Below, piece after piece: positions 92 through 24,254 of a stretch of DNA of 28,647 nt. Positions within the stretch are counted from its first letter, which is position 1; the number at the start of each line of letters is the position of its first letter. This DNA comes from a virus: IMG/VR virus record IMGVR_UViG_3300032087_006300, positions 1 to 28,647 of that record; one strand, 5' to 3'. The notes beneath the pieces were generated by a model. It did not search any database, was not told the origin of the DNA, and was given only the letters and a program-made list of their open reading frames with translations. A program made the position numbers and the translations under genes.

Positions 92-835
92 GTGTACTAT
101 ACTAAAATCTTTCCAATGAGGTATAGGTCCGTATTTTCTTTCAATTGCTCTTCTAAAACCCCATGATTCAAAAAATTGAGTAGGACCTCCTGTAGCCATA
201 TGTAAACACCATTTATCGTAAATGAAAAACTTTTTTAATCTTTTGTAATCTGTATCATAAATGTTAATATTCATAGCTGCTTGATCGTGTATATCATGAC
301 CTTTTTGACTCCTTAAACCTGTTAGCCAAATATCACTAACAAAATTACTTAGTGCTCTTGGTGTACCACCTATAACACCACTACAAAATACTTCACGGTC
401 TTTATGTTGTTGTTTTTCATTTGGGTAACATTTAGCCATAACGTCAGTATTCCATGGTTCTTCACCATGTGTTACTCCTTCACCAGCTACAAAAACATCA
501 TAATTGTATAAATCCATTTTTTCAAAAGGATCATGTAAAAAAGCAACGTCAAATACATCTGTGTATAGTATTGCATCGTAATCGTTTACCTTAGAGCTAA
601 TAAAGGTACTTACAGGTAATAAACGTTGGTTATTTACCGTTTCAGAAGTATCGTTAGATACCTTCTCATACACTATGTTATTGTTTTCTAACGTAATTAT
701 GTCTTGTTCAGTAGCATTCCAAGCAAGTAATATAACATCTCCTCCGGTAACTATTTTAAATGAATTATTCCAAAGTAAAATTTTATCTATATTTTGAGTT
801 ATGTTATTACAAACTCCTGTAAGTAATTTTCTCAT
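38..835 (-). CDS. Putative GT-A glycosyltransferase, PLOD/procollagen-transferase-like pattern
   Basis: This 265-aa protein reads like a nucleotide-sugar-dependent transferase of the GT-A fold. Visible landmarks are ILYTDVFDV at about residues 89-97 (DxxD in the usual DxD metal-site position), FVAGEG at 115-120, a YP pair at 137-138, CSGVIGG at 151-157 and DIHDQAAMN at 181-189. This order (acidic metal motif, E, YP, SG-GG, then DQ) resembles the glucosyltransferase domains of lysyl hydroxylase (PLOD) and related collagen-modifying enzymes, though I infer this from pattern only. The start overlaps the end of the upstream gene by 4 nt (ATGA), and its end overlaps the next operon gene by 8 nt across the contig join. 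No signal peptide or membrane segment is visible, so it should act in the host cytoplasm. The substrate is unknown: a host glycan or a virion protein are both possible. Confidence 0.72.
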   Translation of the reverse strand: MRKLLTGVCNNITQNIDKILLWNNSFKIVTGGDVILLAWNATEQDIITLENNNIVYEKVSNDTSETVNNQRLLPVSTFISSKVNDYDAILYTDVFDVAFLHDPFEKMDLYNYDVFVAGEGVTHGEEPWNTDVMAKCYPNEKQQHKDREVFCSGVIGGTPRALSNFVSDIWLTGLRSQKGHDIHDQAAMNINIYDTDYKRLKKFFIYDKWCLHMATGGPTQFFESWGFRRAIERKYGPIPHWKDFSIVHQFNRIPKIHDEIKKLYE

Positions 836-2055
836 AATACTCTTGTAATTTTTTCACACCACCCTTTTGATTCACTATGAGCCCAGGAAACAATATGGTG
901 TGGTTTAGGACCTTGATAAGTTATCCATCTTGTAAACTCTCGTCCTTCTTTAGTACTTTGTATACCTGAGTTAAACATATTACCATCTATATCTTCTCTA
1001 TGTAAAGAATTATTTTCTTCGTCTTCACAAATTACTGCACAAAATGTATAATCGTTTTCTTTAAAATTAGTGTGACTGAAACTAACAATTTCTTTAAATG
1101 TTTGGTAAAATATATCGTCTGGTGATCCAGGCGGTGGTATGTTATCTTTACATTTTTGAGTTATTGACCTATCTTTAAAGTTTATACCAGCATATGTTTC
1201 ATATTCTTGTAGACTTCTTACATTACCTAAACCGTATTTTTCTTCTATAATTTCATTTTCTCCATCCACGTTCAGTAAAGATCTAACTTTAGCATGACAT
1301 TTTAAATTTTTATCATTCCAAGTTGAATCATCATCCCATTGTTTAGTTCTACCATTTCTTGTATATTCATGCCATGCAATAACTTTATTAGGGTAAAATA
1401 AATCATAACCATGTGTAAAAGATCTAACTGCAAGAGTTATTTCTTCTCCATGAAAATAATATTCTGGGTCATGTTGTACTTCTATACAATGTTCACCTAA
1501 AGTAAAAGCAAAATGTGCTGAATAAAAACGAGCTCTTTGTGGTGTTAATGTTTTATCTTCTATGTAATAAGGTAAGAAAAACACTATACCTTCAGGGGTA
1601 AATCTATCAAAAGACATACCCCAAGGTACGTTAACCCGTCCGTCAGGTTCATTTTCTGGGTTATAGGAAGGGATGTACGAAGTAAGTAACGGTTTTTGAT
1701 GCCCTAGTTTTTGTAAACTTTTAACCATATCAATACATAGTACATCCCAATCTTGTGTAAATCTGTGATGAGAGTCTAATTGTAAAGTGTATGTTTCACC
1801 TTTATACTCTTGTTGTATTAAGTTTCTAGCCCAACAAGCTCCTTTAGAAGTTGAGTAATCAATATCCAGAATAGTAACTCTATTATCATTTTCGTATAAT
1901 TTTAAATTATCCCATTTATCTTGTGGGTTATGCTGCCAAGCTATACAAACATGTAAATTATCTGGATGTTTAGCTTTATCAAATAAGTCTTTTAGAGTTG
2001 GTAATAACTCAGGATCTCTATAACTAGCAATCTGAACAAATATTGTTTCTGTCAT
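832..2055 (-). CDS. GT60-like polypeptide GlcNAc-transferase (PF11397 type)
   Basis: This 407-aa protein matches the GlcNAc-transferase family (CAZy GT60, Pfam PF11397) over residues 3-230. The N-terminal signature IFVQIASYRDPE (5-16) is followed by GACWARNLI (72-80), the metal-binding LQLDSHHRF (91-99; D94, H96), LLTSYIPSY (123-131), FHGEEITLAVRSFTHGYD (201-218) and a final WHEY (228-231). Characterised eukaryotic members transfer GlcNAc to hydroxyproline of Skp1 (Dictyostelium) or to Thr of mucins (trypanosomes), so a protein acceptor is plausible. About 100 residues after 300 fall outside the family core and I do not recognise them. It is the second gene of the minus-strand operon, with 4-nt overlaps on both sides that suggest translational coupling. 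There is no export signal. The family call is strong; sugar donor and acceptor here are unknown. Confidence 0.87.
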   Translation of the reverse strand: MTETIFVQIASYRDPELLPTLKDLFDKAKHPDNLHVCIAWQHNPQDKWDNLKLYENDNRVTILDIDYSTSKGACWARNLIQQEYKGETYTLQLDSHHRFTQDWDVLCIDMVKSLQKLGHQKPLLTSYIPSYNPENEPDGRVNVPWGMSFDRFTPEGIVFFLPYYIEDKTLTPQRARFYSAHFAFTLGEHCIEVQHDPEYYFHGEEITLAVRSFTHGYDLFYPNKVIAWHEYTRNGRTKQWDDDSTWNDKNLKCHAKVRSLLNVDGENEIIEEKYGLGNVRSLQEYETYAGINFKDRSITQKCKDNIPPPGSPDDIFYQTFKEIVSFSHTNFKENDYTFCAVICEDEENNSLHREDIDGNMFNSGIQSTKEGREFTRWITYQGPKPHHIVSWAHSESKGWCEKITRVL

Positions 2056-2546
2056 TTATTTCTTTTAGTATGATGAACGTATGCATCGGTGTACATATAA
2101 TTTAATTTAGGTTGAAGTTTTTCAATCCATTCACGTTCGAGTTTTAATCTTGTTTTTCTGTCATTTTCGATTGCTAATATATAACTGAATAGTACTTTAG
2201 CTCCATAGTATTTAACATTACCTGGAAAGTAATTTACTTTATGCTGTTGTATTCTATGTTTAATTTTATTAGATGAACCTACATACAACCCTTTGGTGGT
2301 AACTAATAAGTAAACTCCTTTTTTATCTCTTGCAAACATAGCTATTTGAGCTTGTTTAACATCTTTTTTCCAACGATTAGGGTTTTGTTTTCTCCATGCT
2401 TTAGAAGTACGTTTAGTCATTTTTGCATAATGACATTTTTTGCAGTAGTTATAACAGTATATCTTACCTGTTTGTTTATTGGTTATAGTGTAATAATCTG
2501 TTAAAGGTTTATCAGTATTACATTTAGTACAAACTTTTGATTCCAT
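2052..2546 (-). CDS. GIY-YIG homing-type endonuclease with N-terminal zinc-finger-like region
   Basis: This 164-aa protein has a GIY-YIG nuclease core: GVYLL at 77-81, LYVGSS at 87-92, the catalytic-type Arg at 98, the H102 region, and LEREWIEKLQPKLNY at 136-150 carrying the conserved Glu and the closing Asn. The N-terminus holds Cys6-x2-Cys9 and Cys35-x2-Cys38, probably a zinc-binding DNA-recognition element, followed by a basic linker (45-66). Small phages often carry such free-standing GIY-YIG genes as homing elements. It is the first gene of the glycosyltransferase operon, downstream of a good Bacteroidetes-type promoter, and its last codons overlap the next start by 4 nt. It may have brought the operon in or be a later insertion at its head. 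Confidence 0.82.
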   Translation of the reverse strand: MESKVCTKCNTDKPLTDYYTITNKQTGKIYCYNYCKKCHYAKMTKRTSKAWRKQNPNRWKKDVKQAQIAMFARDKKGVYLLVTTKGLYVGSSNKIKHRIQQHKVNYFPGNVKYYGAKVLFSYILAIENDRKTRLKLEREWIEKLQPKLNYMYTDAYVHHTKRNK

Positions 2547-2561
2547 TCTTTTTATTTTATT

Positions 2562-2592
2562 AAAATATAAGCACTTTATAATAAATACACAA
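2562..2592 (-). promoter_or_regulatory. Bacteroidetes-type promoter for the glycosyltransferase operon
   Basis: On the minus strand a TTG (2592-2590) is followed after 20 nt by TATATTTT (2569-2562), close to the Bacteroidetes consensus TTTG-N19-21-TAnnTTTG. The GIY-YIG start codon lies 15 nt beyond the box. The four plus-strand promoters in this window have the same layout. Confidence 0.55.
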
Positions 2593-2656
2593 CTTTTCCA
2601 AAAAAATATACAAAATAGTTGATTCTTTGATAAAAAATATATAACTTAACTACTGA

Positions 2657-2689
2657 AGGGTAGGCGCTTGAGTTTACCGCCATAACCCT
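2657..2689 (+). other. Hairpin element A in the divergent intergenic region
   Basis: AGGGT (2657-2661) pairs with ACCCT (2685-2689), and inside it GGCG (2663-2666) pairs with CGCC (2678-2681), leaving an 11-nt loop with TTGAGT. There is no T run on either side, so it is not a normal intrinsic terminator. Its left arm and loop (2658-2673) match element B at 10086-10101 in 13 of 16 positions. The 285-nt gap 2547-2831 otherwise holds only the minus-strand promoter and the A/T tract. Confidence 0.45.
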
Positions 2690-2721
2690 GAAGAGGATGA
2701 ATGGATAAATGGTTTTACTTG

Positions 2722-2763
2722 TATAATTATTATATATATTATTATATATTATTATATAATTTA
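2722..2763. repeat. 42-nt pure A/T tract with iterated ATTATTATAT-like units
   Basis: No G or C occurs from 2722 to 2763, and the run is built of repeated ATTATTATAT-like units that are partly self-complementary. It lies between the divergent operons, downstream of hairpin A and about 70 nt before the scaffold gene. It could be a late promoter region, a DNA-unwinding element or both. A TTG at 2719-2721 with a partial -7 box (2743-2750) is too weak to call a promoter. Confidence 0.6.
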
Positions 2764-2831
2764 GAGAGATATATATAAATTACCTATTTATTTTTTGAAA
2801 ATTCTTTTTATTAACCACTAATAATTCTAAT

Positions 2832-3542
2832 ATGACAAAAGAGGAATTAAAAACACTGGTTAAAAAGTACTTCAATTTGACAGAAATTAATACATCCGAA
2901 ACTAATAACGAAGAGGTAAAAGAGCAATCTTTTGCAGAAGCTACACTTGCGGACGGCACTAAAGTGACAAATATGTCTGATGCCGAATTCGAAGTAGGGC
3001 AAATTCTACATGTTATTACGGAATCGGGGGAACACGTTATTGCTCCAGCAGGTGAGCATGACACAGAATCCGGTATTAGTATCACTGTTGATGAGACAGG
3101 TACTATAACCGGTATTGCAAGACCTGATCAAGAAGGGGAAGGCAGTTTAGCCGATCACGATACTGTTGAAGAACAGATGTCGGAGGAAGTTACTGAAGAA
3201 GTAACTGAGGAACCTTTAAAAGAGGAATTAGCTGAAGAAGAAGAAATCGTTGAACAATTAGAAGAAGATAGTATTCAAGAAGCAGTAGTATCAGCAATAG
3301 CTGAGATTGTTGCTCCAGAAATTGAAGCACTAAAATCTAAACTAACTGAACACGAAGAATTGCTAAAAAAATACATGTCTGAACCAGCTTCAGAACCTGT
3401 AGAAGAAGCAAAAGCTAAATTTTCAGCTACAATAACTCCTAGAACTCAAGTATGGGATAAGGAGCCTTTCAATCAAAAAAGAGCTCAATACGATATGATA
3501 TTGAAGCACAAGGAAAAACAAGTAAAATCAACTCAAAAATAA
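2832..3542 (+). CDS. Putative capsid scaffolding/assembly protein
   Basis: This is a 236-aa acidic protein immediately before the capsid gene (6-nt gap). After an N-terminal helix, residues 34-95 form a beta-rich domain with ATLADGTKV (37-45), VGQILHV (55-61), APAGEH (71-76) and ISITVDETGTI (82-92), a pattern often seen in Bacteroidetes phage proteins next to the capsid gene. Residues 100-150 are very rich in Glu (VTEEVTEEPLKEELAEEEE), and 150-182 look like a coiled coil. The C-terminus is basic. High charge, coiled coil, basic tail and position before the capsid protein are typical of scaffolds. No catalytic protease residues are evident; the protease seems to be the separate gene at 26021. 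Function is inferred from layout and position. Confidence 0.55.
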   Translation: MTKEELKTLVKKYFNLTEINTSETNNEEVKEQSFAEATLADGTKVTNMSDAEFEVGQILHVITESGEHVIAPAGEHDTESGISITVDETGTITGIARPDQEGEGSLADHDTVEEQMSEEVTEEVTEEPLKEELAEEEEIVEQLEEDSIQEAVVSAIAEIVAPEIEALKSKLTEHEELLKKYMSEPASEPVEEAKAKFSATITPRTQVWDKEPFNQKRAQYDMILKHKEKQVKSTQK

Positions 3543-3548
3543 TTCACA

Positions 3549-4451
3549 ATGGGATTAAATGTATCAGCTCTGAATGATTTCAACAATGAGGTAGCAGGTA
3601 AAGTAGTACCTAAAATGGTATTCGAAGGATACACTACTTCTATCTTACCTATCCAAGAAGGAATCAAATACCAAGAGCCTTTAAACATCATGGAGGTTGA
3701 TCTACAGGTTCAAAGCGGAAACTGTGTATCTTCTCCTTCTGGTAGCTTAACTGCTACTCAACGTAACATTACGGTTACTAACAGAGTATCTTACGACGGA
3801 CTTTGTTTAGATGACCTTAACAGCAAATATTTAGGAATTTCTGCACTATCTGCAGGTTCTTACAACGAAACATTTGCTTTAGCAGAAACTTATACTGATA
3901 TGATTGTAAATCAGATGAAAAAATCTGATGATTCATTCTTATGGAACAACTCTAACTTAGGAGTACTTACTTCTGGTTCTACAGCAGGTGTAGTAGTACC
4001 TAACGCTGCTACTGGTTCAGTATCTTCTGCAACTATTTTAGGCATCACTGATGCACTAATTGACAATATTCCTTCTGATATCGCTGACAGAGACGACTTA
4101 ACAATCTGGATGTCAACAGGTAACTTTAGAAAATTCATCACTGCTTTAAGAGGTATTAACAACTATTACTTCGACCCAGGATCAATTTCTAACAGAACTG
4201 GAATTCTACAAATTGCATATCCATTCCAAAACGTAAAAGTTGTTGGTACAGCGGGTATTACAGGAGATAGAATTTGTTTAATGCCAGATGCTTATGCAGT
4301 GGTAGGAACAGATTTAATGTCTGACGAAACTTCATTCCAATTATGGTATGATGTGAATGCAGACCAACTGAAACATAGATTAAAATCTAAATTGGGTGTT
4401 CAAGTAGCATTCCCAGAATATATCGTATCAAACGATAAAGCTGCTCAATAA
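3549..4451 (+). CDS. Probable major capsid protein
   Basis: This 300-aa protein is probably the HK97-fold shell subunit. It follows the scaffold-like gene, precedes the tube and portal genes, and is closed by a strong intrinsic terminator. Its codon use also stands out: AAC, TTC, TAC, GAC and ATC are frequent, while most neighbours use the T-ending codons, as expected for the most abundant protein. Landmarks are VVPKMVFEGYTTSILPIQ (19-36), a Cys-containing beta stretch near residues 58-82, and a long helical segment around 95-125 (ETFALAETYTDMIVNQMKK), consistent with the spine helix of this fold. There is no N-terminal delta domain, which fits a separate scaffold. Assignment is from context, size and layout, not a recognised catalytic motif. 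Confidence 0.68.
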   Translation: MGLNVSALNDFNNEVAGKVVPKMVFEGYTTSILPIQEGIKYQEPLNIMEVDLQVQSGNCVSSPSGSLTATQRNITVTNRVSYDGLCLDDLNSKYLGISALSAGSYNETFALAETYTDMIVNQMKKSDDSFLWNNSNLGVLTSGSTAGVVVPNAATGSVSSATILGITDALIDNIPSDIADRDDLTIWMSTGNFRKFITALRGINNYYFDPGSISNRTGILQIAYPFQNVKVVGTAGITGDRICLMPDAYAVVGTDLMSDETSFQLWYDVNADQLKHRLKSKLGVQVAFPEYIVSNDKAAQ

Positions 4452-4461
4452 TTGAAGCTTT

Positions 4462-4488
4462 AAACGGGCGGTTTCGGCCGCCCTTTTA
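4462..4488 (+). terminator. Intrinsic terminator after the capsid gene
   Basis: GGGCGG (4466-4471) pairs with CCGCCC (4478-4483) over a 6-nt loop (tttcgg), followed by TTTTATT. It is one of the very few GC-rich stretches in the genome and begins about 10 nt after the capsid stop codon. Confidence 0.9.
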
Positions 4489-4511
4489 TTAACTAATAAA
4501 AATTAATAACT

Positions 4512-5060
4512 ATGGCTTGTGATATTTCAAGCGGATTTCAATTAGGCTGCCGTGATAACAGCGGTGGTATAAAATCCGTATATATTTTATCAGGCTCGGT
4601 AACTACAATCACAGAATCTTCAGGAGAAATTACTGATATTTCTGGTGACGGAATTTTCTACCAGTTCGACTTAACTAAGAACACGGGAGATTTTACCGAA
4701 ACACCTAACCCGAGTCTAGAAAACGGTACTGTGTTTTATACACAAACTGTTAATACAGCCTTCCACAAGCTTCAAACGAGTATCAGAAATCAAGTAAAAG
4801 TATTAGCTCAAAACCCTGACTTAAAAATTGTTGTTGAAACAAACAACGGTGTTGAGTCACCTTATACAGGCAAATTCTTTTACGTTGGTAGATATAGAGG
4901 AGCTACATTGACTGGAGGCTCAGGTACATCTGGAACAGCATTTGGTGATGCTAACCAGTATGCGCTAACATTTGAAGGACTTGAACCTGAACCGGCTCAA
5001 GAAATTTCAACTTCAGGTAATTTAACAGATGCTTTAACAGGTATTACTGTTTCTTACTAA
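4512..5060 (+). CDS. Probable major tail (tube) protein
   Basis: This 182-aa beta-rich protein starts MACDISSGFQLGCRD, a form common to small structural proteins of Bacteroidetes phages (MACDI..G...C.D). The middle (residues 75-125) has the strand-helix-strand look of tail-tube proteins: TAFHKLQTSIRNQVKVLAQN, then DLKIVVETNNG, then KFFYVGRYRGATL. A Gly/Ser/Thr-rich turn (131-143) and LTFEGLEPEP (154-163) complete it. Like the capsid gene, it uses more C-ending codons than its neighbours and has its own intrinsic terminator, which suggests a very abundant protein. The tube role is inferred; a head decoration protein is the main alternative. Confidence 0.52.
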   Translation: MACDISSGFQLGCRDNSGGIKSVYILSGSVTTITESSGEITDISGDGIFYQFDLTKNTGDFTETPNPSLENGTVFYTQTVNTAFHKLQTSIRNQVKVLAQNPDLKIVVETNNGVESPYTGKFFYVGRYRGATLTGGSGTSGTAFGDANQYALTFEGLEPEPAQEISTSGNLTDALTGITVSY

Positions 5061-5071
5061 TATAAAAAAGG

Positions 5072-5110
5072 AATAAGGGAAGGGTTATTTGAGATTCTTC
5101 CCTTTTTTCC
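5072..5110 (+). terminator. Intrinsic terminator after the probable tail tube gene
   Basis: AAGGGAAG (5075-5082) pairs with CTTCCCTT (5097-5104), loop 14 nt, and the right arm runs into six Ts (5103-5108). A flanking AAAAAAGG/CCTTTTTT-type extension makes it partly bidirectional. The next gene starts 15 nt later with no clear promoter between, so read-through probably drives the portal block. Confidence 0.85.
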
Positions 5111-5124
5111 TATATTAAAAAGAT

Positions 5125-5583
5125 ATGATTAATTTATACAAAACTCAGTCAGCTTCTTCATTTGTGATGTATCCAGAAGATACACCATTTAGTGCAAGTA
5201 CAGCTGCTCATTATAAATTATCCGTATCTCAAAGTTTAGATCAAAGTAACAGTTTAATAACTGTAAATCGTTTAAACACCAGATACTCATCTAATTGGTC
5301 TAACGTATTAGTATTAAGTACTGTAGATAGTACTCAAATACCTACAGCATCAGGTCAATATCAAGCTGAGTTATTATATCAAGCAGGTGATAAAGCTAAA
5401 TGGGGAATACAACATACCTTATTTGGAACCACCAATGCTCTTTGGTCTAATGTATCACAAAGTTACTATTCTGGTAGTGTAATTTCTACAGATAGAGCTT
5501 ATGTGTTTGGAACCAATGAACAAACAATTACAGAGTACACCGGCTCTGATCAAATCGGTAAATATATAACCTATAATTCGTAA
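5125..5583 (+). CDS. Structural protein of unknown role before the portal
   Basis: This 152-aa protein is not recognised. It is Ser/Thr/Tyr-rich and looks all-beta: an N-terminal MINLYKTQSASSFVMYPED, central alternating strands (LSVSQSLDQSNSLITVNRL), and a tail with repeated short SxSYYSGSVIST-type strands. There is no signal peptide and no membrane segment. It sits between the tube terminator and the portal gene, with one base separating it from the portal start, so it is almost surely part of the virion block. Head decoration, fibre-anchoring or neck roles are possible. The ASGQYQAELLYQ segment (84-95) recalls small beta-sandwich domains found beside phage adhesins, which is a weak resemblance only. 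Confidence 0.6.
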   Translation: MINLYKTQSASSFVMYPEDTPFSASTAAHYKLSVSQSLDQSNSLITVNRLNTRYSSNWSNVLVLSTVDSTQIPTASGQYQAELLYQAGDKAKWGIQHTLFGTTNALWSNVSQSYYSGSVISTDRAYVFGTNEQTITEYTGSDQIGKYITYNS

Positions 5584-5584
5584 G

Positions 5585-6781
5585 ATGGCAGAAAATAAAA
5601 AATTCAAATTTCAACGAATACCTTCACCAAACAATTTTAAAGCATTTGATTGGTCTGAAAAAGGTAAAGATGAATATGTTAAGTTTGGAGATGATAACTT
5701 ATTTCCTCAAACCACAATTGACATTTACAATAAGTCTTCAATCCATGCAGCAGCTGTTAATGCCATCGTTCAAGGTATTATAGGAAAAGGATTAACTGCA
5801 AATGAAGAAGTATATCTTAAGAGTGCTAATCGTAAAGGAGAGACATGGAATGACTTGTATGCGAAAGTAGCATTAGATTATAAATTACATGGATCATTTG
5901 CACTAGAAGTAATTTGGTCAAGAGATAGAAGTATGGTAGAGTTTCACCATATTGACTTTTCTCATATAAGAGCAGCTAAAAAAGATCACAGAGGACATAT
6001 TCCAGGATATTATATTAGTTCAGAATGGAACAGAATTGGTAGAAGTAGAGCAGTAGTTACTGATCAAGAAGCTTTATATATACCAAGTTTCAATCCATTA
6101 TTAAAAGAAGAACACCCTCATCAATTATTCGTACACCAAAATTACAGACCAGGTCAAACATATTACCCACTACCAGACTATGTAGGTGCTTATAGAGTAA
6201 TTGAATTAGATACAGAAATAGATAACTTCCATACAAATAACATTCGTAATGGTTTAGCTCCTTCTCTATCAATTACTACATTTACAAATGGTTCAGATGA
6301 ACAATTAAGAGAAATTGAAGCACAGTTAAATGCAAACTATGCCGGTGGAGAAAATGCAGGTTCATTAATGTATATTGATGTAGATAGTCCTGAAAATGCA
6401 CCACAAATAACTCCAATACCACAAAATGGAGCAGATGGATATTATGTCACAATTAATGACATGGTGGTACAAAAAATATTAACTGCACACAGAATTACCT
6501 CACCTATGATATTAGGAATTAAAACTGAGGGTCAATTAGGTGGTAGATCAGAAGTAGTAGATGCTTATTTACTTTTCCAAAATAATGTAATAGTTCCTTA
6601 CCAACAAGATATATTAGGTAGTTTAGAAGTTTTAATGCATTTAAACTATCCAGATGCAGTATTAGGTGTTGAACAAAAGAAACTATATGATGATGGTACT
6701 GAAGAAGAAGAAGTGATTGTAGATACTGATACTACTGACCAAGAAGAAGCAGACATTCAACAACCAGAACTTATAGCATAA
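5585..6781 (+). CDS. Portal protein
   Basis: This 398-aa protein has the size and layout of a portal of the Bacteroidetes siphophage type. It forms the ring at the unique capsid vertex through which DNA enters and leaves. Landmarks include EYVKFGDDNLFPQTTIDIY (30-48), then the helix AAAVNAIVQGIIGKGLT (55-71), a Trp/Tyr-rich body with HIDFSHIRAAKKD (122-134), and a late helical segment VVDAYLLFQNNVIVPYQQD (324-342) typical of portal stems. The C-terminus (370-393) is an acidic tail. Its stop overlaps the connector gene start by one base (TAATG). Portal following capsid, rather than terminase-portal-capsid, is the reverse of the common order. Confidence 0.8.
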   Translation: MAENKKFKFQRIPSPNNFKAFDWSEKGKDEYVKFGDDNLFPQTTIDIYNKSSIHAAAVNAIVQGIIGKGLTANEEVYLKSANRKGETWNDLYAKVALDYKLHGSFALEVIWSRDRSMVEFHHIDFSHIRAAKKDHRGHIPGYYISSEWNRIGRSRAVVTDQEALYIPSFNPLLKEEHPHQLFVHQNYRPGQTYYPLPDYVGAYRVIELDTEIDNFHTNNIRNGLAPSLSITTFTNGSDEQLREIEAQLNANYAGGENAGSLMYIDVDSPENAPQITPIPQNGADGYYVTINDMVVQKILTAHRITSPMILGIKTEGQLGGRSEVVDAYLLFQNNVIVPYQQDILGSLEVLMHLNYPDAVLGVEQKKLYDDGTEEEEVIVDTDTTDQEEADIQQPELIA

Positions 6782-7368
6782 TGACAGACGTATTTTTAAT
6801 ATCAGAAGCAAAAGTAAGACAGTTCACCGACATTAATAATAATGTTGATACTGAGCTTATTAAAAATAATATCAGAATAGCACAAGACTATTATTTACAA
6901 CAAACCATTGGTACAAAGTTGTACGAAAAATTAATGGATGATGTACAAAATAATACTTTAGCTGGTTATTATGCAACCTTACTTAATGATTATGTACAAG
7001 ACTACTTACTTTATTGTACATATTATGAAACTTTAGAGTCAATTTATTTGAGACCAAGAAATAATGGTTTACTAAGACCAAATGGTGGAGAAAATTCAGA
7101 CCCTGTAGATAAAGACATTTACAATATGAAACGTCAATCTATAGAAAATAAGATGACTTTTTATAATGAAAAATTGACTCAATATATAATCGAAGAAGAA
7201 GCAAACTTCCCAGAATTAGCAACAACAGATAAACTTTATGAACAAGTAGCAGATTATACCAACAAATACAAAAACCCGTTTGTCTTAAGAAGAACTGCTT
7301 ATGCAGATTGGGCTCAACATTATGGTATTAGACTATATGATTCAAGATATAAACAATACCCACAATAA
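6781..7368 (+). CDS. Head-tail connector (DUF6712-like)
   Basis: This 195-aa mostly helical protein directly follows the portal with a 1-nt overlap. The N-terminus MTDVFLISEAKVRQFTDINNNVD and then IAQDYYLQQTIGTKLYEKL (around 32-51) are typical of gp6-like head-tail adaptors in Bacteroidetes phages, which bind below the portal ring. A second helix pair (YATLLNDYVQDYLLYCTYYE, about 62-81) and a positively charged C-terminus follow. The family call is from sequence style and from the portal neighbour. Confidence 0.65.
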   Translation: MTDVFLISEAKVRQFTDINNNVDTELIKNNIRIAQDYYLQQTIGTKLYEKLMDDVQNNTLAGYYATLLNDYVQDYLLYCTYYETLESIYLRPRNNGLLRPNGGENSDPVDKDIYNMKRQSIENKMTFYNEKLTQYIIEEEANFPELATTDKLYEQVADYTNKYKNPFVLRRTAYADWAQHYGIRLYDSRYKQYPQ

Positions 7369-7370
7369 AA

Positions 7371-9941: not shown

Positions 9942-9947
9942 TAACTT

Positions 9948-14578: not shown

Positions 14579-14611
14579 ACAAGAAGTAAACACACAGTAA
14601 TATTTATTTTT

Positions 14612-15367: not shown

Positions 15368-15465
15368 TAACAGCATTAAACTATTTAGAAATAGACAAAG
15401 ACTATAACCAACAGATGCAAAAGCTTGAAAAACAGGCAATTGAAATGAACAAATATAGAAGATAA
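15160..15465 (+). CDS. Tail assembly chaperone extension in the -1 frame (T-like domain)
   Basis: This frame has no start codon of its own and no stop between 15160 and 15462 (101 codons). It is read by -1 shift from the chaperone gene and ends 2 nt before the next gene, leaving no gap. Its content looks real: after an acidic linker ([15 protein letters not shown]) comes [20 protein letters not shown], then [19 protein letters not shown] and a basic helical end. This HWGWW-x-LY-x-L plus terminal helix is the recurring form of the frameshifted part of tail chaperones in Bacteroidetes phages. The fused protein would be 284 aa. A one-base assembly error in the T run is the main alternative. Confidence 0.8.
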
Positions 15466-15467
15466 AA

Positions 15468-17165
15468 GTGAAGGTACAAAACATTGCATATTCAGAAATA
15501 ATTGACCTATTCATTCAGGCTTGTGATGAAAATTTATCTGTATCTACGTTTGATACCGGTACTATAGATTTTCTAGATGCCAATGCAGTCAATAAAAATT
15601 ACCCTTATATATATTTACGTCCGATATCATCACCTGGAGTAGTGGATGGTACACGAACTCTTACATTTGAACTTTACTCAATGGATGTTCCAAATGTTTA
15701 TGATCAGTCACCGGTACAATTATTATCGGCGTGTGAGGAAAGAATATATCAAATTTGCAGCTGGTTTAACAGAGGAGAAACAGACATACAGCAGACTTAC
15801 GAAATAAATATTACAGATGTTTCACCGGTCAATGAAGCATTTGAAGATAGAGTATTTGGTTGGGTTGCTACCATTGAAGTAGTAACACCTTGGAATTGGA
15901 ACTATTGTGATTATCCAAAAGTATGGCCGACGGCTACACCTACACCAACTGCCACTGCCACACCTACGGCAACACCGGTCATACCTACAGCTACGCCTAC
16001 GGCTACTGCAACTCCAACTCCTACCGGACCTACTCCTACTCCAACAAGTACAGGTACGCCTACGCCTACACCAACTATTAGTCCTACTCCGACTGCAACT
16101 CCGTTGCCAACTCCGCCGCCTAGTCCAACACCTACGCCTACGGCAGCACCACCGTCGTTTGAATTTTTAATTAACGAATTGAATCAATCAGGCAATTTAA
16201 CAGGAAGTTGTGACTTCTCTTCTTCAGCAACTGTACCAGTGTATGTACAATGGTTTGACGATGATCCTTCTTACCCAGATAGATTGGTTGGTAAGCAAGT
16301 TTATAGCGACAGTAATTTATCTACAGTTTATACAGGTTCAGCAGTATTTGATGGAACAGTCAATAGATTAGTATCTTATGATGATCAAGCAGCAGCCATA
16401 CAATTAGAATGGTATGTAGGTACAACTAGAAACATAGTTAACACTGCAATAAGTTGTAACTATCCAGTAGTTGATGCAGAACCAGTTTCAGACCAAACTC
16501 TAGATTCAGTTAACTTAAATGGACGTATTGAAGATTATGCGGGAAGAACATTAGATATGTTCGGCTTTGAATGGGGATTAACCTCTGGTAGTTTACTAAA
16601 TGTAGTAACAGGTAGTTACGTTAATTTACAAAGTACATTTAGTGGTAGTGTTGATAATTTAGAGCCTAACACAACAGTTTACTATAGAGCATGGGCTAGA
16701 GATGAAATAACTGAATATTATTACTACAGTAGTATTATTTCAGGTAGTACAGCAACAGCTTATCCACAAAAAATAAAAATTGATGACGATGCTATATTAG
16801 GTCAAAGAACTACTTTAGAACTAGCTTGTGGTGATGTATACGATCAGGCAGTTACTCAATGTAACTTAGTAGTACCAGCTGAAACAGTATTCTACATACC
16901 AGGTTTAACACCATTTGATAGTGGTTCGTTTGAAATAGAAAATCAAGTATTACCTGCTTATGTTTATTATGATGCAGAGTTTAAACACCATGTAAGCGGT
17001 AGTCAGTTAACGACAATTAACAGATACGAAAACCGTGAAATGTCTTACGGTGATGATCCAGGTGTAACCGGTGTTGGTATATTTAGTGATGTTACTTCTT
17101 CATTGAATCCTTTGAATAGATGGGCATTAATTAACTCTTGTAGTTTATCTTGTGTAAACGTTTAA
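15468..17165 (+). CDS. Tail-terminator-like protein fused to a Pro/Thr stalk and adhesin-like domains
   Basis: This 565-aa protein starts with GTG at 15468. Residues 1-150 look like a tail terminator or tail completion domain ([36 protein letters not shown], then [15 protein letters not shown]), expected at this position before the gp10-like gene. Residues 154-230 are a mucin-like stalk of repeated [12 protein letters not shown] and PTPTPT units. After it comes a Cys-bounded module (C248-C330) with [20 protein letters not shown], the same module that is repeated in the 1619-aa tail protein. The rest, with YYRAWARDE around residue 410, looks like a fibronectin-III fold. A small tail-end protein carrying a long displayed arm is unusual. 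Codons vary within the stalk, so the repeat is kept at protein level. Confidence 0.7.
15927..16157 (+). repeat. Pro/Thr stalk region in the tail-terminator-like gene
   Basis: About 77 codons of Pro, Thr and Ala with few others. Third positions are mixed (cct, cca, ccg; act, aca, acg), so the DNA is a degenerate 6-bp periodic tract. The open +1 frame across it (15907-16170) is a by-product of this. Confidence 0.9.
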
Positions 17166-17166
17166 T

Positions 17167-17481: not shown

Positions 17482-18593
17482 TGGCAATAACAGTATCATC
17501 AGCACCCAGCTACCCTAATGCAACTTATACACATCTACTGTATACAATAAGCAGTACACAATCTGGTAGTCCTCAGTTTCAATATATAATGGATGTTAAA
17601 CAAGGAGGTACATTACTTGCTCGTTTAAAACAATACCCAAACCCTAATGCGGTAGGTATATTTGATGCAGCTAGAGTACTTTCTGATTATATTGAATATG
17701 ATGAAAACTGGAAAACATCTACAGTTAGTTCACCAGTACAGTCAGTACAAGCTTTTGACATTTTATTTGGTGAAGAATATGGTACATCAGTATCATCTTC
17801 TACTGTAATATATGATGGTAATGGTAATCCAGGTAACCCTGGTGTTACTCCAGGTACAGCTACTGTATTTGGTGGTGTAGTTGATCCAAACAATGGAAGT
17901 TCATTTAACTGGCAACCTCAAAACATATTATCTAACAGACCAACTTCAGGACCATTACAAATTACATATGATGAATACGAAACTTTATCTATATATGTAA
18001 CTTCTTCTGTAACAGCTACAGTAGACTATAACCCAGGTAGTCCTTCCACTTATACTTTATCTTCTGGGTTTAATACTATACCTATTGGTAGTAAAAATAT
18101 TAACAGTGCAGTACAATTTACAGAAATTATAGTAGATGTAAATGGATTCCAATATACTTACACACTTGCAGAAAATTGCAACTATGATAGAGTTAGATTT
18201 GCATTTATAAACAAATTTGGATTTTGGGATTATTACGGATTTAATTTACCAGTAAAAAAGGAAACAACCACTACAAGAAAAGGTTTAACAAGACCTATGG
18301 TTAATTATAGTGGTGTATTAGGTTCGTATAATGGTCAAAGAAGAGGTAAGGATTGGTATAATATTCAATATGAAGATAACTATACTGTTACTACTCCATT
18401 TTTAAGTCAAACAGAAGCTGCTTGGGTTAGTGAAATATTTGAATCACCTTCAGTTTATTTACAAGTAGGAGATAATTTTATTCCAATTGTTATTACAAGT
18501 GGTAATTATTTACACAATACTAACTTAAGAGGACAAAAAACGTTCCAATACGAAATACAATATCAATACGCTAACAATAGAATAGGTAGATAA
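17481..18593 (+). CDS. Tail-tip or baseplate structural protein
   Basis: This 370-aa beta-rich protein lies directly before the large hub-like gene, with one-base overlaps on both sides. It begins SSAPSYPNATYTHLLYTI, followed by ARLKQYPNPNAVGIFDAARV (48-67), where a short phrase of the type NP...G.FD..R.L..Y recurs in Bacteroidetes phage baseplate proteins. Later landmarks are FAFINKFGFWDYYGF (about 236-250), and a C-terminal immunoglobulin-like stretch ending FQYEIQYQYANNR. The pattern fits a distal tail (Dit-like) component. No enzyme motif is seen. The exact role is inferred from order and style. Confidence 0.6.
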   Translation: MAITVSSAPSYPNATYTHLLYTISSTQSGSPQFQYIMDVKQGGTLLARLKQYPNPNAVGIFDAARVLSDYIEYDENWKTSTVSSPVQSVQAFDILFGEEYGTSVSSSTVIYDGNGNPGNPGVTPGTATVFGGVVDPNNGSSFNWQPQNILSNRPTSGPLQITYDEYETLSIYVTSSVTATVDYNPGSPSTYTLSSGFNTIPIGSKNINSAVQFTEIIVDVNGFQYTYTLAENCNYDRVRFAFINKFGFWDYYGFNLPVKKETTTTRKGLTRPMVNYSGVLGSYNGQRRGKDWYNIQYEDNYTVTTPFLSQTEAAWVSEIFESPSVYLQVGDNFIPIVITSGNYLHNTNLRGQKTFQYEIQYQYANNRIGR

Positions 18594-21500
18594 TGGCAGA
18601 TCTGGTAGTAAGAGTCGAGTATAACAATACTGTATACGACTTAGACATTGAAAAAGATATTCCTTTACGACTTGATATATCATCGGTTGAAAATCAAGCT
18701 ATTGGAAAATTCTTTGGTGTAGGTTCTCAGACTTTTGACTTACCAGGTACTAAAAATAACAACCAATTTTTTAAGCACGGATATAAAGTAGTAGCAGAAG
18801 ATATTCCTGCTTTCTATAATACTATACCAGGAAGATTAATACTTAACGGAGAGACAATCTTAGACGGTCAGTTTCAATTATTAGAGATAGTTGCTGATAG
18901 TCAAGGTTATGCTACATATAAATGTCGTTTGACAGACCAAGTAGTAACGTTTAATGATGTTTTGGCATCTAAATTAATCAAAAATTGTGACTGGTCAGAC
19001 TTAACTCATAATTTAACATATGCCAATATTACAGGTAGCTGGTTAGAAGATGGTTTGTTAAGTGGTAGTATTTTTTACCCTATGGTATTTTATGGATTTG
19101 ATAATCCAGATAACATACAGTTACCTTATTTTTCTTTTTCTGGTTCACAGGGTGCTTATTTAACTAATAGTTTAACACCTATACAAGCTCAACAGTTTTT
19201 ACCTGCTGTTAGAGTTAAAGATACACTCGATAAAATATTTGACCAAGCAGGATATAACTATACTGGTAGTTTTGTTACTGGTTCAAATTTTGAACAGCTA
19301 TACATTTTACCAAAAGCACAAGATACATTAGGTATAGTAGGAGAAGAAGGAGAAGTAGCAACGTGTTTAGTAACTTTAGGTTCAAATCAAACAATTACCG
19401 GTGGTAGTACTGATGTAGTTACTTTTAGTACAGAACTTTCAGATCCACAAAATAGATTTGATACAGTATCACATGATTATGCAACTGTAGATATAGGAGA
19501 CTATACTTTTAGTACTCAAGTACAATTTTTTAACCCTGCTGCCTTTGGAGGAGACGTAACTATTAAGTTAGAACTTATGATAGGTACTAATCCTACTAGT
19601 GGTACTGTTATTTCATCTGGAGAAAGAACGTTTACTTCAGCAGATGGCTTTGCGGTATTTACTTTAAGTGCAGGAGGTACTGTTTATAGTAGTGCAGCTA
19701 ACGATGTTTGGGCAAGAGTTACCTATACAATTAACAGCGGTTCACCAGGTAGTTTAACATTATCCTTTGGTACACAATTTGAATGTACTGCTGCACCTTC
19801 TGCAGTTGTTGGTGCACCGGTAAATATGGGATTACAATTTGGTCCAAACACAAAAAGTATTGATGTACTAAACGGTTTAATTGAACAATTTAACTTAGTT
19901 CTTACACCAGTCAAAGGAAATGAAAAGACTATTAGTATAGATTCTTTTGATACTTGGATGAGAAATGGTAGTATTAAAGATTGGACAGATAAATTTGATG
20001 AAGCTACAAGAATATCTATAAATCATACAGTAGATGAACAACCAAAACAGTTGTTATTACAAAATGTAGATGATGTAGATAGATTTTCTAAAGCAGCAAT
20101 TGAATCAGATCCTTACTACCAATATGGAACACTACGTATTATAGCTGACAATAATGTTTCTCAGGGTGAAAGAAAAATAGGTAGTTATTTTGCTCCTACG
20201 GTGTTAGGAGGTCCTTTTGACCCATTAACAACAGGTACAGGAACCAGTGGAGATGGTACATTACAAATTGATCGAAGTAGTAACTTCGTTTTCCCCCACT
20301 TATATAAGTATGAAAATAGTAAAGTAACATCTTATAGTTTTAAACCAAGAATTGGATATAAAGTTACTGGTACTTTACCTCAAACAATATATATTGGACC
20401 AGCTGGAGGTGGAGCTGATGCAATTACTGGTCAGTATGCTACTTTAGCTAACGTAAGTGACTTACCTGCTATAACTAGTAGTTTAAACTTACACAATAAT
20501 GATACTTATTCTACGTTTACAGATACAAATAATGTAAATGGTGGTAAAAATAATTATGAAAATTATTGGGAGACTTATATAGAAAGTTTATACTGGGATG
20601 AATCAAACAAAGTAACAATGAATATTGAGTTTGATCAGTATGAATATCAAGACATCAATCTTAACGATAGAATTTTTATAAAAAATAATTTATATCGTAT
20701 TAATAAAATTTCAGGGTTTAATCTTACCCAAAAAGATACAGCAGTATGTGAATTAATTACTCTTTACCCAGAGTACTTTAGTGGTTTAGACTTTACCGGA
20801 TGTACATTTACAGTTAGTGGCAGTGAAAGTGTAACAGATTGTGTTGGTAACACTCCAACTCCAACAGCAACTTCTTTACCAACCCCAACTCCAACGCCTA
20901 CTGCTACTTTAGTACCAACATCAACACCAACACCAACAGGTCCAACACCGACCCCAACACCGACTTCAACGTCAGCAGGTCCTACTCCGACTCCTACACC
21001 TACTAGTACACCTGGTGGTGGTACGCCTACACCTACACCAACTCCTACTCCGACACCAACAGCTACAACACCAGTTGGAGTATTTAATTTAGGTATTAGT
21101 GCCGGTAGTACTAACCAAAACCAATGTGGTGCAACTATTACTGGTAGTGTTTATGTAACAGGTTCGGCACCAATGGAAACTTGGACACAGTATGGTCAAA
21201 GAATTTATACTGATAGTAGTTTAACTACAGCATTTAGTGGAGGTAACAGATTCCACAGAATTACTTCTGGTAGTAATGATGCAGTTTGGTCAGTAAGTAG
21301 TACAGGTTTAGTATCAGTAGCTGGTCCTAATTGTAGTGGTTCATTCCAATTCTATAGTAACTTAGGTTTCTTAACAGAAGGTAATGAATGTTTTGCTACT
21401 GCATCAACTGCAAGATATACTACTGATTTTAGTAACGTTGATGATATTCAAGTTGGAGATAGAATATATAGTGATTCTAGTTTAACATCTGAATTAGCTG

Positions 21501-23452
21501 ATGGATATCATTATGGTATAAGTAATACTCAAGGTGATTTACCAGCTTATGGATTTGAATATTCTTTAGGCTTTGGTGTTACTAATTTAGGTGCTTGTGA
21601 TGCAGGTACACCGATTTCAATGTCTAGTTACGGTATTACATCTACAGAAGCTTGTCAGGATACAAGCTGGCAGTATATTGCATATGTTTCTGGTGGAGCT
21701 GATCCTTATACATTATCTGTAGGTGATACAATTTACGAAAACCCACAATTAACATTACCATTTGATATTGCAAATAACGTTTACTGGGGTGTATATAGTG
21801 GTAGTGTAGAAACACCTGTTGTTTGGTACAGACTTTACAATGGAGTAGTTCAAGATAGTGGTTCTTGTGGTAGTGATGTTTCTTATGCAGTATTTAGAGA
21901 TGAAGGTTCAACTGCAGGTAACGAAGGATGTTTCAATACACATACAGATACAATATATACTAGACAGCCATTATCTGAAATAGTAGATGCTGGTTCTGGA
22001 ATATTCTATAGTAATGAATTTGCTTCATTATTATTCCAAGGTGGAACTAAGAGATATAGTTTATATCAATCAGCTTCAGCAGAGGTAAGTGAAAGTAGAG
22101 CAATCTTTACAATAACTAATGCCGGTATAGGTACATTATTTGAAAGCTGTAGTTTAGTTAACTACGAATATAAATTAGCAACAGTTAGTAATACTTCTTA
22201 CGATACTTGTAATGCAGAATTCCAATATTCAATTTACAGTGGAGACTTTGATGGTGTACAAGCTATGCAAGATGGTGATAGACTTTACACTAACAATAAT
22301 TTATCAACAGAAGTAGCAGACGGAACATTTGGTGTAATTACTAACTTAGATGATCCATCTTGTATTGGATATGCTACAGGAAGTGTTGGTAGAAGATTTA
22401 CCTACAGTTTGATTAGTGGTGTTACACTATTAGATAGTGAATTCTCAGGTAGTTATTGTGTTGGTACTCCTAACGGTAGTGGATATTATGGATACTTACA
22501 AGTAACTGGAAGTTGTGGAGGTTCTCAATCAGGTACAGTATATCCAGAAGATTTATTCTGGGGTACTAGAAATACAGTAAATATTCTTCAAACTGGGGAT
22601 AGATTATACAATAATAGTGATGGTACTAACGAAGTAGCTTCAGGTACTTATGGATTATCTACATTTGATGATGCAAATGATTCATTCCCAATCATTGATA
22701 GAACTTATGCTTATATAAGTGTAACTTATGTAAACGGTAGCGGTATTAGTGCAATTACATATTGTGATACTTGTGCACCATTCCTACCAACACCGACACC
22801 TACACCAATAGTACCTACTGCAACACCAACGCCAAGTCCAAGTCCAACACCTAGTCCTACACCGACTCCAACTCCAACAGATACGGTTTATGCGTTGAAC
22901 AAAACAGTGTCACAAACATTCTCTGGAGTAGTATGTGCAGCTAATGCAACTGACGGAGACTTCTTTACATTAAGAAGTAGAGGATTAAATATTCAAGTTG
23001 GAGATATTATGTATGCTGATGGTAATTTAACTACACCATACAATGGAGGAAATGATTACTATGGAGTTGCAACAGAAAATGATACTACACCAGAAGTTGA
23101 AATTAGAGTACAAGCTAACGGATATGTATCGAGTGTAACAAATTGTCCACCACCACCGACACCTACTCCAACTCCAACAGCTACTCCAGTACCAGTACAA
23201 AACTATAGAAGTAGCAATGGATACGGTAATACATCTTCTGCTTGTGCTGATACATCGTTAAATGCAATATGGGCTGTTGCAGATGCAGCTTCATTACAAG
23301 TAAATGATTACATTTATACAAACAGTGCAATGACAACACCGTTTAATGGAGGTGGTCAGTATTGGGGAATAGAATCTGGAACTACATCCTTTAGAGCAGC
23401 AATGTTAATAGCTTCTGATGGTAGAATACAACTAATATCAAATTGTCCATAA
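18593..23452 (+). CDS. Giant tail-tip protein: hub-like head, Pro/Thr stalks, eight Cys-bounded modules
   Basis: This 1619-aa protein is the longest in the genome. Residues 1-750 are beta-rich and look like a baseplate hub or tail-tip protein (start VVRVEYNNTVYDLDIEK, later GFNLTQKDTAVCELITLYPE near 706-725). Residues 754-827 are a Pro/Thr stalk. From about 845 on come eight modules of roughly 90 residues, each starting and ending with Cys and centred on a GDxIYxxxxLT-type motif (around residues 866, 953, 1042, 1133, 1226, 1333, 1469 and 1569). Two shorter stalks (1398-1432, 1519-1535) separate the last modules. Modules of this kind could bind surface carbohydrate, and the Cys pairs suggest disulfides or at least a common fold. 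The C-terminus is the last module (GRIQLISNC). There is no protease or lysin motif that I recognise. Confidence 0.72.
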   Translation: MADLVVRVEYNNTVYDLDIEKDIPLRLDISSVENQAIGKFFGVGSQTFDLPGTKNNNQFFKHGYKVVAEDIPAFYNTIPGRLILNGETILDGQFQLLEIVADSQGYATYKCRLTDQVVTFNDVLASKLIKNCDWSDLTHNLTYANITGSWLEDGLLSGSIFYPMVFYGFDNPDNIQLPYFSFSGSQGAYLTNSLTPIQAQQFLPAVRVKDTLDKIFDQAGYNYTGSFVTGSNFEQLYILPKAQDTLGIVGEEGEVATCLVTLGSNQTITGGSTDVVTFSTELSDPQNRFDTVSHDYATVDIGDYTFSTQVQFFNPAAFGGDVTIKLELMIGTNPTSGTVISSGERTFTSADGFAVFTLSAGGTVYSSAANDVWARVTYTINSGSPGSLTLSFGTQFECTAAPSAVVGAPVNMGLQFGPNTKSIDVLNGLIEQFNLVLTPVKGNEKTISIDSFDTWMRNGSIKDWTDKFDEATRISINHTVDEQPKQLLLQNVDDVDRFSKAAIESDPYYQYGTLRIIADNNVSQGERKIGSYFAPTVLGGPFDPLTTGTGTSGDGTLQIDRSSNFVFPHLYKYENSKVTSYSFKPRIGYKVTGTLPQTIYIGPAGGGADAITGQYATLANVSDLPAITSSLNLHNNDTYSTFTDTNNVNGGKNNYENYWETYIESLYWDESNKVTMNIEFDQYEYQDINLNDRIFIKNNLYRINKISGFNLTQKDTAVCELITLYPEYFSGLDFTGCTFTVSGSESVTDCVGNTPTPTATSLPTPTPTPTATLVPTSTPTPTGPTPTPTPTSTSAGPTPTPTPTSTPGGGTPTPTPTPTPTPTATTPVGVFNLGISAGSTNQNQCGATITGSVYVTGSAPMETWTQYGQRIYTDSSLTTAFSGGNRFHRITSGSNDAVWSVSSTGLVSVAGPNCSGSFQFYSNLGFLTEGNECFATASTARYTTDFSNVDDIQVGDRIYSDSSLTSELADGYHYGISNTQGDLPAYGFEYSLGFGVTNLGACDAGTPISMSSYGITSTEACQDTSWQYIAYVSGGADPYTLSVGDTIYENPQLTLPFDIANNVYWGVYSGSVETPVVWYRLYNGVVQDSGSCGSDVSYAVFRDEGSTAGNEGCFNTHTDTIYTRQPLSEIVDAGSGIFYSNEFASLLFQGGTKRYSLYQSASAEVSESRAIFTITNAGIGTLFESCSLVNYEYKLATVSNTSYDTCNAEFQYSIYSGDFDGVQAMQDGDRLYTNNNLSTEVADGTFGVITNLDDPSCIGYATGSVGRRFTYSLISGVTLLDSEFSGSYCVGTPNGSGYYGYLQVTGSCGGSQSGTVYPEDLFWGTRNTVNILQTGDRLYNNSDGTNEVASGTYGLSTFDDANDSFPIIDRTYAYISVTYVNGSGISAITYCDTCAPFLPTPTPTPIVPTATPTPSPSPTPSPTPTPTPTDTVYALNKTVSQTFSGVVCAANATDGDFFTLRSRGLNIQVGDIMYADGNLTTPYNGGNDYYGVATENDTTPEVEIRVQANGYVSSVTNCPPPPTPTPTPTATPVPVQNYRSSNGYGNTSSACADTSLNAIWAVADAASLQVNDYIYTNSAMTTPFNGGGQYWGIESGTTSFRAAMLIASDGRIQLISNCP
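20852..21073 (+). repeat. First Pro/Thr stalk of the giant tail-tip gene
   Basis: About 74 codons of PT, PTPTAT and PTPTPTST units, with one PGGG break. Codon choice is mixed. It connects the hub-like domain with the first Cys-bounded module. Confidence 0.9.
22784..22887 (+). repeat. Second Pro/Thr/Ser stalk
   Basis: About 35 codons of PTPTP, PTATPTP, PSPSPTPSPT and similar, placed between modules 6 and 7. Confidence 0.88.
23147..23196 (+). repeat. Third, short Pro/Thr stalk
   Basis: About 17 codons (PPPPTPTPTPTATPVPV), placed between modules 7 and 8. Confidence 0.85.
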
Positions 23453-23453
23453 T

Positions 23454-24254
23454 ATGGCAGGATCAGTAACATTATATTTAACATCAGCATCAGCAGGAGC
23501 AGGTAACTTTCAAATTTACCACACTAGTGCTGATCCTGGTAATCTAATAGCACAAAACGTAAGTTCGGCTTCTTTAGCTGCAGGATATTGTACTAATGAA
23601 GTGTATAGTACTTATGTGGTAAAAAGTGATACAGTTGATTGTCAAAATCAAGTATTAGTTTACCCAGGAGGAGCTCCAGTACCAACTCCTACTCCTACAT
23701 TAGTAGGTCCTACACCAACTCCAAGTACTTTACCTACTTTAACTGATGGTTGGAGAATAACTGCAGGTGCTGTAACATTTGGTGGAGGTAGTGTAATAGG
23801 ATATCATAGAGGAACTGTTTATGGTTGTCCAACTCCTGCTGTAGCAATAGGAAGTGAAGTTAGTCCTACTACAACTACGGTTAATTTACCAGGTACTGAT
23901 TGTTATTGGACTAGTATATTTGGTGCTAATATATCAAAAGGGTATGGTGTAACAGGGATTGGTGCTGCATCTAATATTACATTGACTCAATTTACTTACG
24001 ATAATAGTTCTGGTATATTAGTATTTGCAGCTACTAATGGTACTGCTACTAGTAATATCGGTAATGGTAGTTTATCAGGTACAATTGTAGGTAATAATAG
24101 TACAAGTGGTACTTGGTCTGTTAATTACACTGTTGGTACAACATATGTAGATAATAATGGTGCAGGTACAAGTTACACAGTAGAAAGTACTGGGACTATG
24201 TCTATCAGTGGTTTAACTCTTACCAATGGTGTAACGTATAATATAACTGTTTAA
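23454..24254 (+). CDS. Tail appendage protein with short Pro/Thr linker
   Basis: This 266-aa protein starts 1 nt after the giant tail-tip gene. Residues 3-72 form a small beta domain (SVTLYLTSASAGAGNFQIYH, then LAAGYCTNEVY and DCQNQVLVYPGG) of a type found at ends of Bacteroidetes phage tail proteins. A linker at about 75-95 has PVPTPTPTLVGPTPTPS. The remainder is Gly/Ser/Thr-rich beta with TVYGCP and TDCYWTS Cys sites and no Lys beyond the middle, consistent with an exposed fibre or adhesin. Third protein in this region with a Pro/Thr linker. Exact role unknown. Confidence 0.6.
   Translation: MAGSVTLYLTSASAGAGNFQIYHTSADPGNLIAQNVSSASLAAGYCTNEVYSTYVVKSDTVDCQNQVLVYPGGAPVPTPTPTLVGPTPTPSTLPTLTDGWRITAGAVTFGGGSVIGYHRGTVYGCPTPAVAIGSEVSPTTTTVNLPGTDCYWTSIFGANISKGYGVTGIGAASNITLTQFTYDNSSGILVFAATNGTATSNIGNGSLSGTIVGNNSTSGTWSVNYTVGTTYVDNNGAGTSYTVESTGTMSISGLTLTNGVTYNITV
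23676..23738 (+). repeat. Pro/Thr linker in the 266-aa tail protein
   Basis: Twenty-one codons that are mainly Pro and Thr, with the same mixed codon use as the larger stalks. Confidence 0.85.

Follow-up and report, generated by a model that had tools for sequence, protein, structure and literature searches.

The virus record IMGVR_UViG_3300032087_006300 of IMG/VR, analyzed here over its entire length of 28,647 bases (hereafter, the window), represents a complete phage genome, obtained from environmental DNA and bounded by an identical 91-bp direct repeat at both termini. Because of this end repeat, four neighboring minus-strand genes with glycosyltransferase-like features form a single cassette that is contiguous across the joined termini (Table 1). 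Genes for the portal, terminase, protease and tail are located on the plus strand, and three consecutive tail genes (A, B and C) contain five Pro-Thr stalks. An initial annotation of this DNA had described the enzymes as four glycosyltransferases, one of them GT60-like, and the stalks as their possible mucin-like acceptors in the virion.

Table 1. Cassette genes, stalk-bearing tail genes and end repeats of the window
Feature	Position	Strand	Basis or description
Direct end repeat, 91 bp	1..91 (left copy); 28557-28647 (right copy)		
GTcol, GT-A fold glycosyltransferase, 265 aa, proposed extender	38..835	-	phrog_1579 (2.8e-5) and structural model
GT60 glycosyltransferase, 407 aa, proposed initiator	832..2055	-	PF11397 and phrog_24687
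GIY-YIG endonuclease-like gene	2052..2546	-	PF01541 (2.4e-8); upstream end of cassette
Tail protein A, 565 aa	15468..17165	+	Conserved N-terminal ~153 aa, Pro-Thr stalk, variable C-terminal part
Pro-Thr stalk of A, proposed acceptor	15972..16163	+	
Tail protein B, 1619 aa	18593..23452	+	Conserved N-terminal ~750 aa, followed by repeated C-terminal domains and stalks in alternation
Pro-Thr stalk 1 of B, proposed acceptor	20873..21082	+	
Pro-Thr stalk 2 of B, proposed acceptor	22766..22903	+	
Pro-Thr stalk 3 of B, proposed acceptor	23117..23200	+	
Tail protein C, 266 aa	23454..24254	+	Short Pro-Thr stalk
Pro-Thr stalk of C, proposed acceptor	23667..23747	+	
HtrL/YibB family protein, 267 aa, proposed glycosyltransferase	27073..27876	-	PF09612 (1e-19)
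DDDV protein, 246 aa, predicted glycosyltransferase	27861..28601	-	Invariant FxDDDV motif and cassette position

Cassette enzymes and tail stalks

All five stalks are long low-complexity stretches dense in Thr/Ser and Pro, as expected of a mucin-type acceptor, and the initial claim of such stalks in the tail proteins is borne out for all three proteins. Their occurrence is above chance, as the DNA pattern for PTPTPTPT was found in none of 50 random viral records and Pro-Thr stalks in only one of 80 random loci. Tail protein B additionally contains repeats with a GDxIYxDxxLTTPFNGG-type motif, located between and after its stalks (21203-23355), which are possibly receptor-binding units; a tblastn search of phage isolates with its N-terminal part gave no match.

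The most confidently assigned enzymes of the cassette are the GT60 and YibB proteins. The former matches PF11397 over its catalytic region (E = 1.2e-71; 242 bits vs. a cut-off of 21) as well as phrog_24687 (E = 1e-171), and residues D94, S95 and H96 of its DxD-like motif (QLDSHHRF) are invariant among 10 phage homologues; at the level of family prediction, we consider its GT60 identity secure, in agreement with the initial annotation. The YibB protein is matched by PF09612 (HtrL_YibB) over its full length (residues 9-263) with a score far below the cut-off for the E. coli YibB equivalog, and its predicted membership in the broader HtrL/YibB family is likewise secure. YibB genes occur near GT60 in 24 of 35 GT60 clusters. 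Outside of its catalytic part, the GT60 protein has a C-terminal module (approximately residues 326-407; 832-1080 in the window), which also ends the YibB proteins of several cassettes (L065:13430-14548, L055, L074) and may either bind a shared acceptor or keep the enzymes together.

The other two enzymes are more divergent. GTcol, which is conserved within the cassette among relatives, produced a weak match to a phage glycosyltransferase profile; a Foldseek search with its AlphaFold model (predicted TM score, pTM, of 0.80) retrieved GT-A enzymes with E-values down to 8.6e-9, and judging by this model GTcol is a GT-A fold protein. Its initially suggested resemblance to collagen-type hydroxylysine glycosyltransferases is not supported, as the matches were to general GT-A enzymes, with no Pfam family and no collagen glycosyltransferase among the 50 best structural matches listed. 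The DDDV protein occupies a fixed cassette position in every relative covering that region; it had no family match in Pfam and PHROG profile searches, and no fold was assigned to it because its AlphaFold model is unreliable (mean predicted local distance difference test score, pLDDT, of 40.7). Sequence searches of the PDB using the alignments of all four enzymes yielded nothing meaningful. The proposed set of four glycosyltransferases is, therefore, upheld to a different extent for its individual members: by family profile for two of them, by modeled fold for GTcol, and by motif for the DDDV protein. The four genes do belong to one cassette, and their summed size (~3.6 kb) is somewhat larger than the ~3.2 kb initially estimated.

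Co-variation of stalks and enzymes among relatives

The hypothesized connection between enzymes and stalks was assessed within the phage's own family, whose members were retrieved via a conserved 182-aa protein (4512-5060) and a tail protein and have the capsid, the portal and the 182-aa protein in common. Among 30 relatives searched over their whole length, GT60 was found in seven and the Pro-Thr pattern in four, all four of them GT60-positive; the remaining three GT60-positive relatives (G151, G164, G167) are fragments ending before the stalk genes. When only records covering the tail are considered, Pro-Thr stalks are present in 5/5 GT60-positive ones (the window, G152, G154, G166, G177) and in 0/7 GT60-negative ones (G153, G156, G158, G169, G170, G171, G175). 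Thus, independent variation of stalks and transferases among relatives, named at the outset as an outcome that would count against their joint action, is not what we observe: the two co-vary. In a tree of portal, capsid and 182-aa proteins the GT60-positive lineages do not form sister groups. The cassette occupies the protease-capsid interval in one group; in others it is found between the tape-measure gene and the genes for the stalk proteins. The GIY-YIG endonuclease-like gene, which could be a mobility gene, is retained in close relatives of the window (L004-L009) and was undetected when the second cassette group was searched (G164, G166, G167, G177).

The composition of the cassette is also variable. 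In a relative whose tail protein is 70% identical (L084), GT60 is kept and the rest of the cassette has given way to genes for an FkbM methyltransferase and for an enzyme of the GT32/capsule type; another relative (L004) has an additional DUF3431-type gene, which is present in the cassette of an unrelated phage (L065) as well. Both the replacement of partners and the extra gene fit a model of a fixed initiator with variable extenders.

Two of the seven GT60-negative relatives are stalkless (G153, G156); in the other five, the corresponding position is taken by poly-Thr/Ser stalks. In these five relatives a gene of another family, PHROG 4417, is found either immediately downstream of the stalk gene (G158) or one small gene beyond it (G169, G170, G171); a poly-Thr stalk and PHROG 4417 are both present in an additional fragment (G168), and the record of G175 stops just past its poly-Thr tail gene, before any enzyme gene could show (PHROG 4417 loci of G158 and G168-G171: L406-L407, L413-L418, L425). 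No PHROG 4417 gene was found in the four Pro-Thr and two stalkless relatives searched. This family carries a DSD/DAD motif; its Pfam and PDB searches were empty, and a profile comparison with GTcol and YibB revealed no detectable homology. Since homology searches are uninformative here, it is the genomic context together with this motif that makes PHROG 4417 a candidate poly-Thr glycosyltransferase.

Two side observations concern this alternative stalk type. In isolate phages (loci L432-L441), PHROG 4417 is located at or near a virion protein gene, and a Thr-rich run lies in or ends that protein in 8 of 10 cases examined, such as the major tail protein of Lactococcus phage 1706 (...VTTTTTTTTTTHHD), the major tail protein of phiFL1B and the capsid protein of PLE3; no Thr-rich run is found beside PHROG 4417 in bIL285 or VPE25. 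A related tail protein on a short contig (L091:4368-4800) has TTTTLAPTTTT stalks in place of PTPT, any enzyme partner lying beyond the contig.

These data bear on the alternative that the enzymes glycosylate other virion proteins (e.g., capsid or tail tube) and that Pro-Thr stalks are merely flexible linkers characteristic of the same kind of tail. It is consistent with mycobacteriophages, in which glycans were found on the C-termini of capsid and tail-tube proteins (Freeman et al., 2023, as cited in PMC12619734), and with the fact that 41 of 50 records collected by their stalks display Pro-Thr linkers and no GT60. However, relatives devoid of the cassette retain the capsid protein (81-89% identical) and have lost the Pro-Thr stalks instead, the type of stalk and the type of enzyme switch together, and bacterial GT60 genes adjoin stalk proteins where no virion exists (see below). 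On balance, we regard this alternative as unlikely.

GT60 and stalks in other phages and in bacteria

The association extends beyond this family, as the PTPTPTPT pattern is present in 33 of 50 GT60 records from other phages, compared with its absence from the random records described above. Conversely, GT60 was detected in 9 of 50 stalk records (representing approximately five lineages) vs. 1 of 50 random records. At the protein level, the density of stalks is 0.86 per 10 kb near GT60 vs. 0.06 in random loci, and the single stalk-containing locus of the random set (L162) derives from the only GT60-bearing random record. The distance between GT60 and stalks is shorter than expected from uniform placement within a record (20 clusters, Fisher p = 1.8e-5), including records over 60 kb (p = 1.4e-4); this closeness holds only with respect to whole records, and no steady rise in stalk density toward the gene was observed within +/-10 kb of GT60. 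Individual examples include the unrelated phage mentioned above (L065), in which a complete cassette comes after an 885-aa stalk tail gene, and a locus (L070) in which a 156-aa stalk gene ends ~50 bases ahead of GT60.

The random control records came from mixed habitats, GT60 records are longer on average, and related records are not independent, all of which limits these comparisons; the first two circumstances leave room for a common habitat or host that unites GT60 and Pro-Thr stalks without any functional link. This explanation appears very improbable, given that GT60 and stalks co-vary inside one phage family, that their closeness within a record exceeds uniform placement, and that GT60 genes directly next to those of stalk proteins are found repeatedly in Bacteroidota, Gemmatimonadota and Vicinamibacterales.

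The latter cases emerged from a scan of bacterial genomes, in which a long-form GT60 gene adjoins that of a stalk protein in six loci: Saprospiraceae (L274), a metagenome-assembled genome (MAG) of Bacteroidia (L275), Jiulongibacter sediminis (L276), two Gemmatimonadota MAGs (L281, L302) and a Vicinamibacterales MAG (L282). Because automated stalk detection produced spurious hits in GC-rich bacterial DNA and overlooked stalks rich in Ser, the bacterial sequences were inspected by eye; their stalks are either Pro-Thr or Ser-rich. In all six proteins a twin-arginine-like RR-hydrophobic segment (also recognized by eye) precedes the stalk, and the Saprospiraceae protein has a type 9 secretion sorting domain at its C-terminus. 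In both Gemmatimonadota proteins, a PqqD-like domain is located ahead of the stalk. The twin-arginine route exports proteins that have been finished in the cytoplasm, and such a signal therefore suggests modification in the cytoplasm prior to export; phage tails would require modification in this compartment as well. Short GT60 proteins (~300 aa; Magnetococcales, Actinomycetota) are not clearly tied to stalks and were set aside.

Proposed glycosylation of tail stalks and its implications

The characterized GT60 enzymes (PF11397), the Skp1 hydroxyproline enzyme of Dictyostelium and the mucin enzyme of Trypanosoma cruzi, are polypeptide alpha-N-acetylglucosamine (alpha-GlcNAc) transferases. The window enzyme belongs to the same Pfam family, has the DSH motif, and its proposed acceptor is a protein dense in Thr and Pro; unlike them, it is phage-encoded, contains an extra C-terminal module and is part of a cassette with other transferases, its acceptor and sugar being predicted.

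Several viruses provide partial precedents. The major capsid protein of the chlorovirus PBCV-1, a eukaryotic algal virus, is glycosylated, and no Pro-Thr stalk acceptor is known to be involved. A shared feature, as proposed for the window phage, is the action of virus-encoded glycosyltransferases on a virion protein; capsid glycosylation of PBCV-1 is named in PMC5852040. The same source reports at least two virion glycoproteins in the Xanthomonas jumbo phage XacN1, for which the authors suggest phage glycosyltransferases as the cause, and the part available does not link GT60 with stalks. According to our analysis, ORF334 of XacN1 is a full-length GT60 homologue (44.8% identity), and its genome contains many Pro-Thr stalk sites and YibB-like proteins. 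In the ORF330-ORF334 locus of XacN1 (L316), GT60 is accompanied by two YibB-like genes and one for a carbamoyltransferase, an arrangement similar to that of the Jiulongibacter sediminis cluster; XacN1 differs from the window phage by its jumbo size and by this partner set, including the carbamoyltransferase. Mycobacteriophages, according to PMC12619734, are similar with respect to phage-encoded glycosyltransferases and exposed virion extensions as (for the window phage, proposed) sites; these are the C-termini of capsid and tail-tube proteins there vs. internal tail stalks here. With virion glycosylation already published for mycobacteriophages and virion glycoproteins reported for XacN1, the original statement that no phage system of this type had been described was too strong. 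Full-text literature searches combining GT60 or PF11397 with phage found no paper, nor was a GT60/Pro-Thr-stalk pairing found described in the literature searched.

Other functions of the cassette have to be considered as well. Phage glycosyltransferases that modify the host surface are well known and, in E. coli, YibB is located near lipopolysaccharide core genes; the cassette might, thus, alter host surface glycans (serotype conversion, superinfection exclusion), its association with stalks being indirect. This possibility is quite improbable, since no flippase or polyprenol-linked transferase was recognized in the window, GT60 is described as a polypeptide-acceptor family, and the stalk-linked gain and loss would be left unexplained. 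GT60 is, to our knowledge, not a DNA-modifying family, and among the window proteins searched none was recognized as serving base hypermodification (hydroxymethylase, thymidylate synthase-like). Glycosylation of modified DNA bases as a defense against restriction, a generally known role of some phage glycosyltransferases that is also mentioned in PMC12619734, is for these reasons highly improbable; both of these functions are, in our view, unlikely.

We consider it quite likely that the phage performs GT60-primed O-glycosylation of its own Pro-Thr tail stalks. The observed genes and stalks, their adjacency and their matched gain, loss and swapping are the basis on which we infer that a sugar is transferred, as well as its identity, the residue that receives it, the order in which the enzymes act and the benefit for the phage. 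The cassette would be a cytoplasmic O-glycosylation set, in which GT60 would attach the first sugar to Thr of PTPTPTAT-type stalks, either ahead of tail assembly or in its course; Thr rather than hydroxyproline is the presumed acceptor because no prolyl hydroxylase was recognized among the window proteins searched. By analogy with characterized GT60 enzymes, this first sugar is probably alpha-GlcNAc. It would be extended or decorated by GTcol and the DDDV and YibB proteins (exchanged in some relatives), resulting in extended tail appendages covered in glycan. Stiffening and a protective coat are plausible benefits; hiding of the appendages or lectin binding, as originally suggested, is unsupported.

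The initial idea that cassette and stalks act together is, thus, strengthened by co-variation, adjacency and co-occurrence relative to random records; actual sugar attachment is a prediction from genes and stalks. Several points weigh against the idea. The comparison within the family draws on a small number of lineages, some of them related, and on many records that are fragments; with so few lineages, it is strong but not conclusive. About one third of GT60 records lack the PTPTPTPT pattern, and most stalk records are without GT60, for part of which fragments and other enzymes may be responsible. The DDDV protein counts as a glycosyltransferase by motif and context, and the XacN1 glycoproteins may or may not be its stalk proteins.

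A broader proposal, which we offer tentatively and would rate as a whole at slightly less than an even chance, is that long-form GT60 defines a general cytoplasmic "bacterial mucin" system of phages and bacteria built of matched stalk/enzyme pairs. In such a system GT60 would prime O-glycans on Pro-Thr stalks, and exchangeable partner enzymes would determine the glycan; bacteria would export the finished stalk via a twin-arginine-type route, and phages would incorporate it into their tails. Matched swaps would pair Pro-Thr stalks with GT60 and poly-Thr stalks with PHROG 4417, which, if this proposal is true, would represent an unrecognized glycosyltransferase family. Cultured systems are at hand, including XacN1, the PHROG 4417 phages PLE3, phiFL1B and 1706, and Jiulongibacter sediminis. 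If true, these findings would help to explain why glycosyltransferases and Pro/Thr- or Thr-rich stalks occur together in many environmental phages, would provide a sequence rule predicting glycosylated virion proteins and the responsible enzyme, and would widen the range of mucin-type protein glycosylation to include phages and a little-noticed group of bacterial surface proteins.

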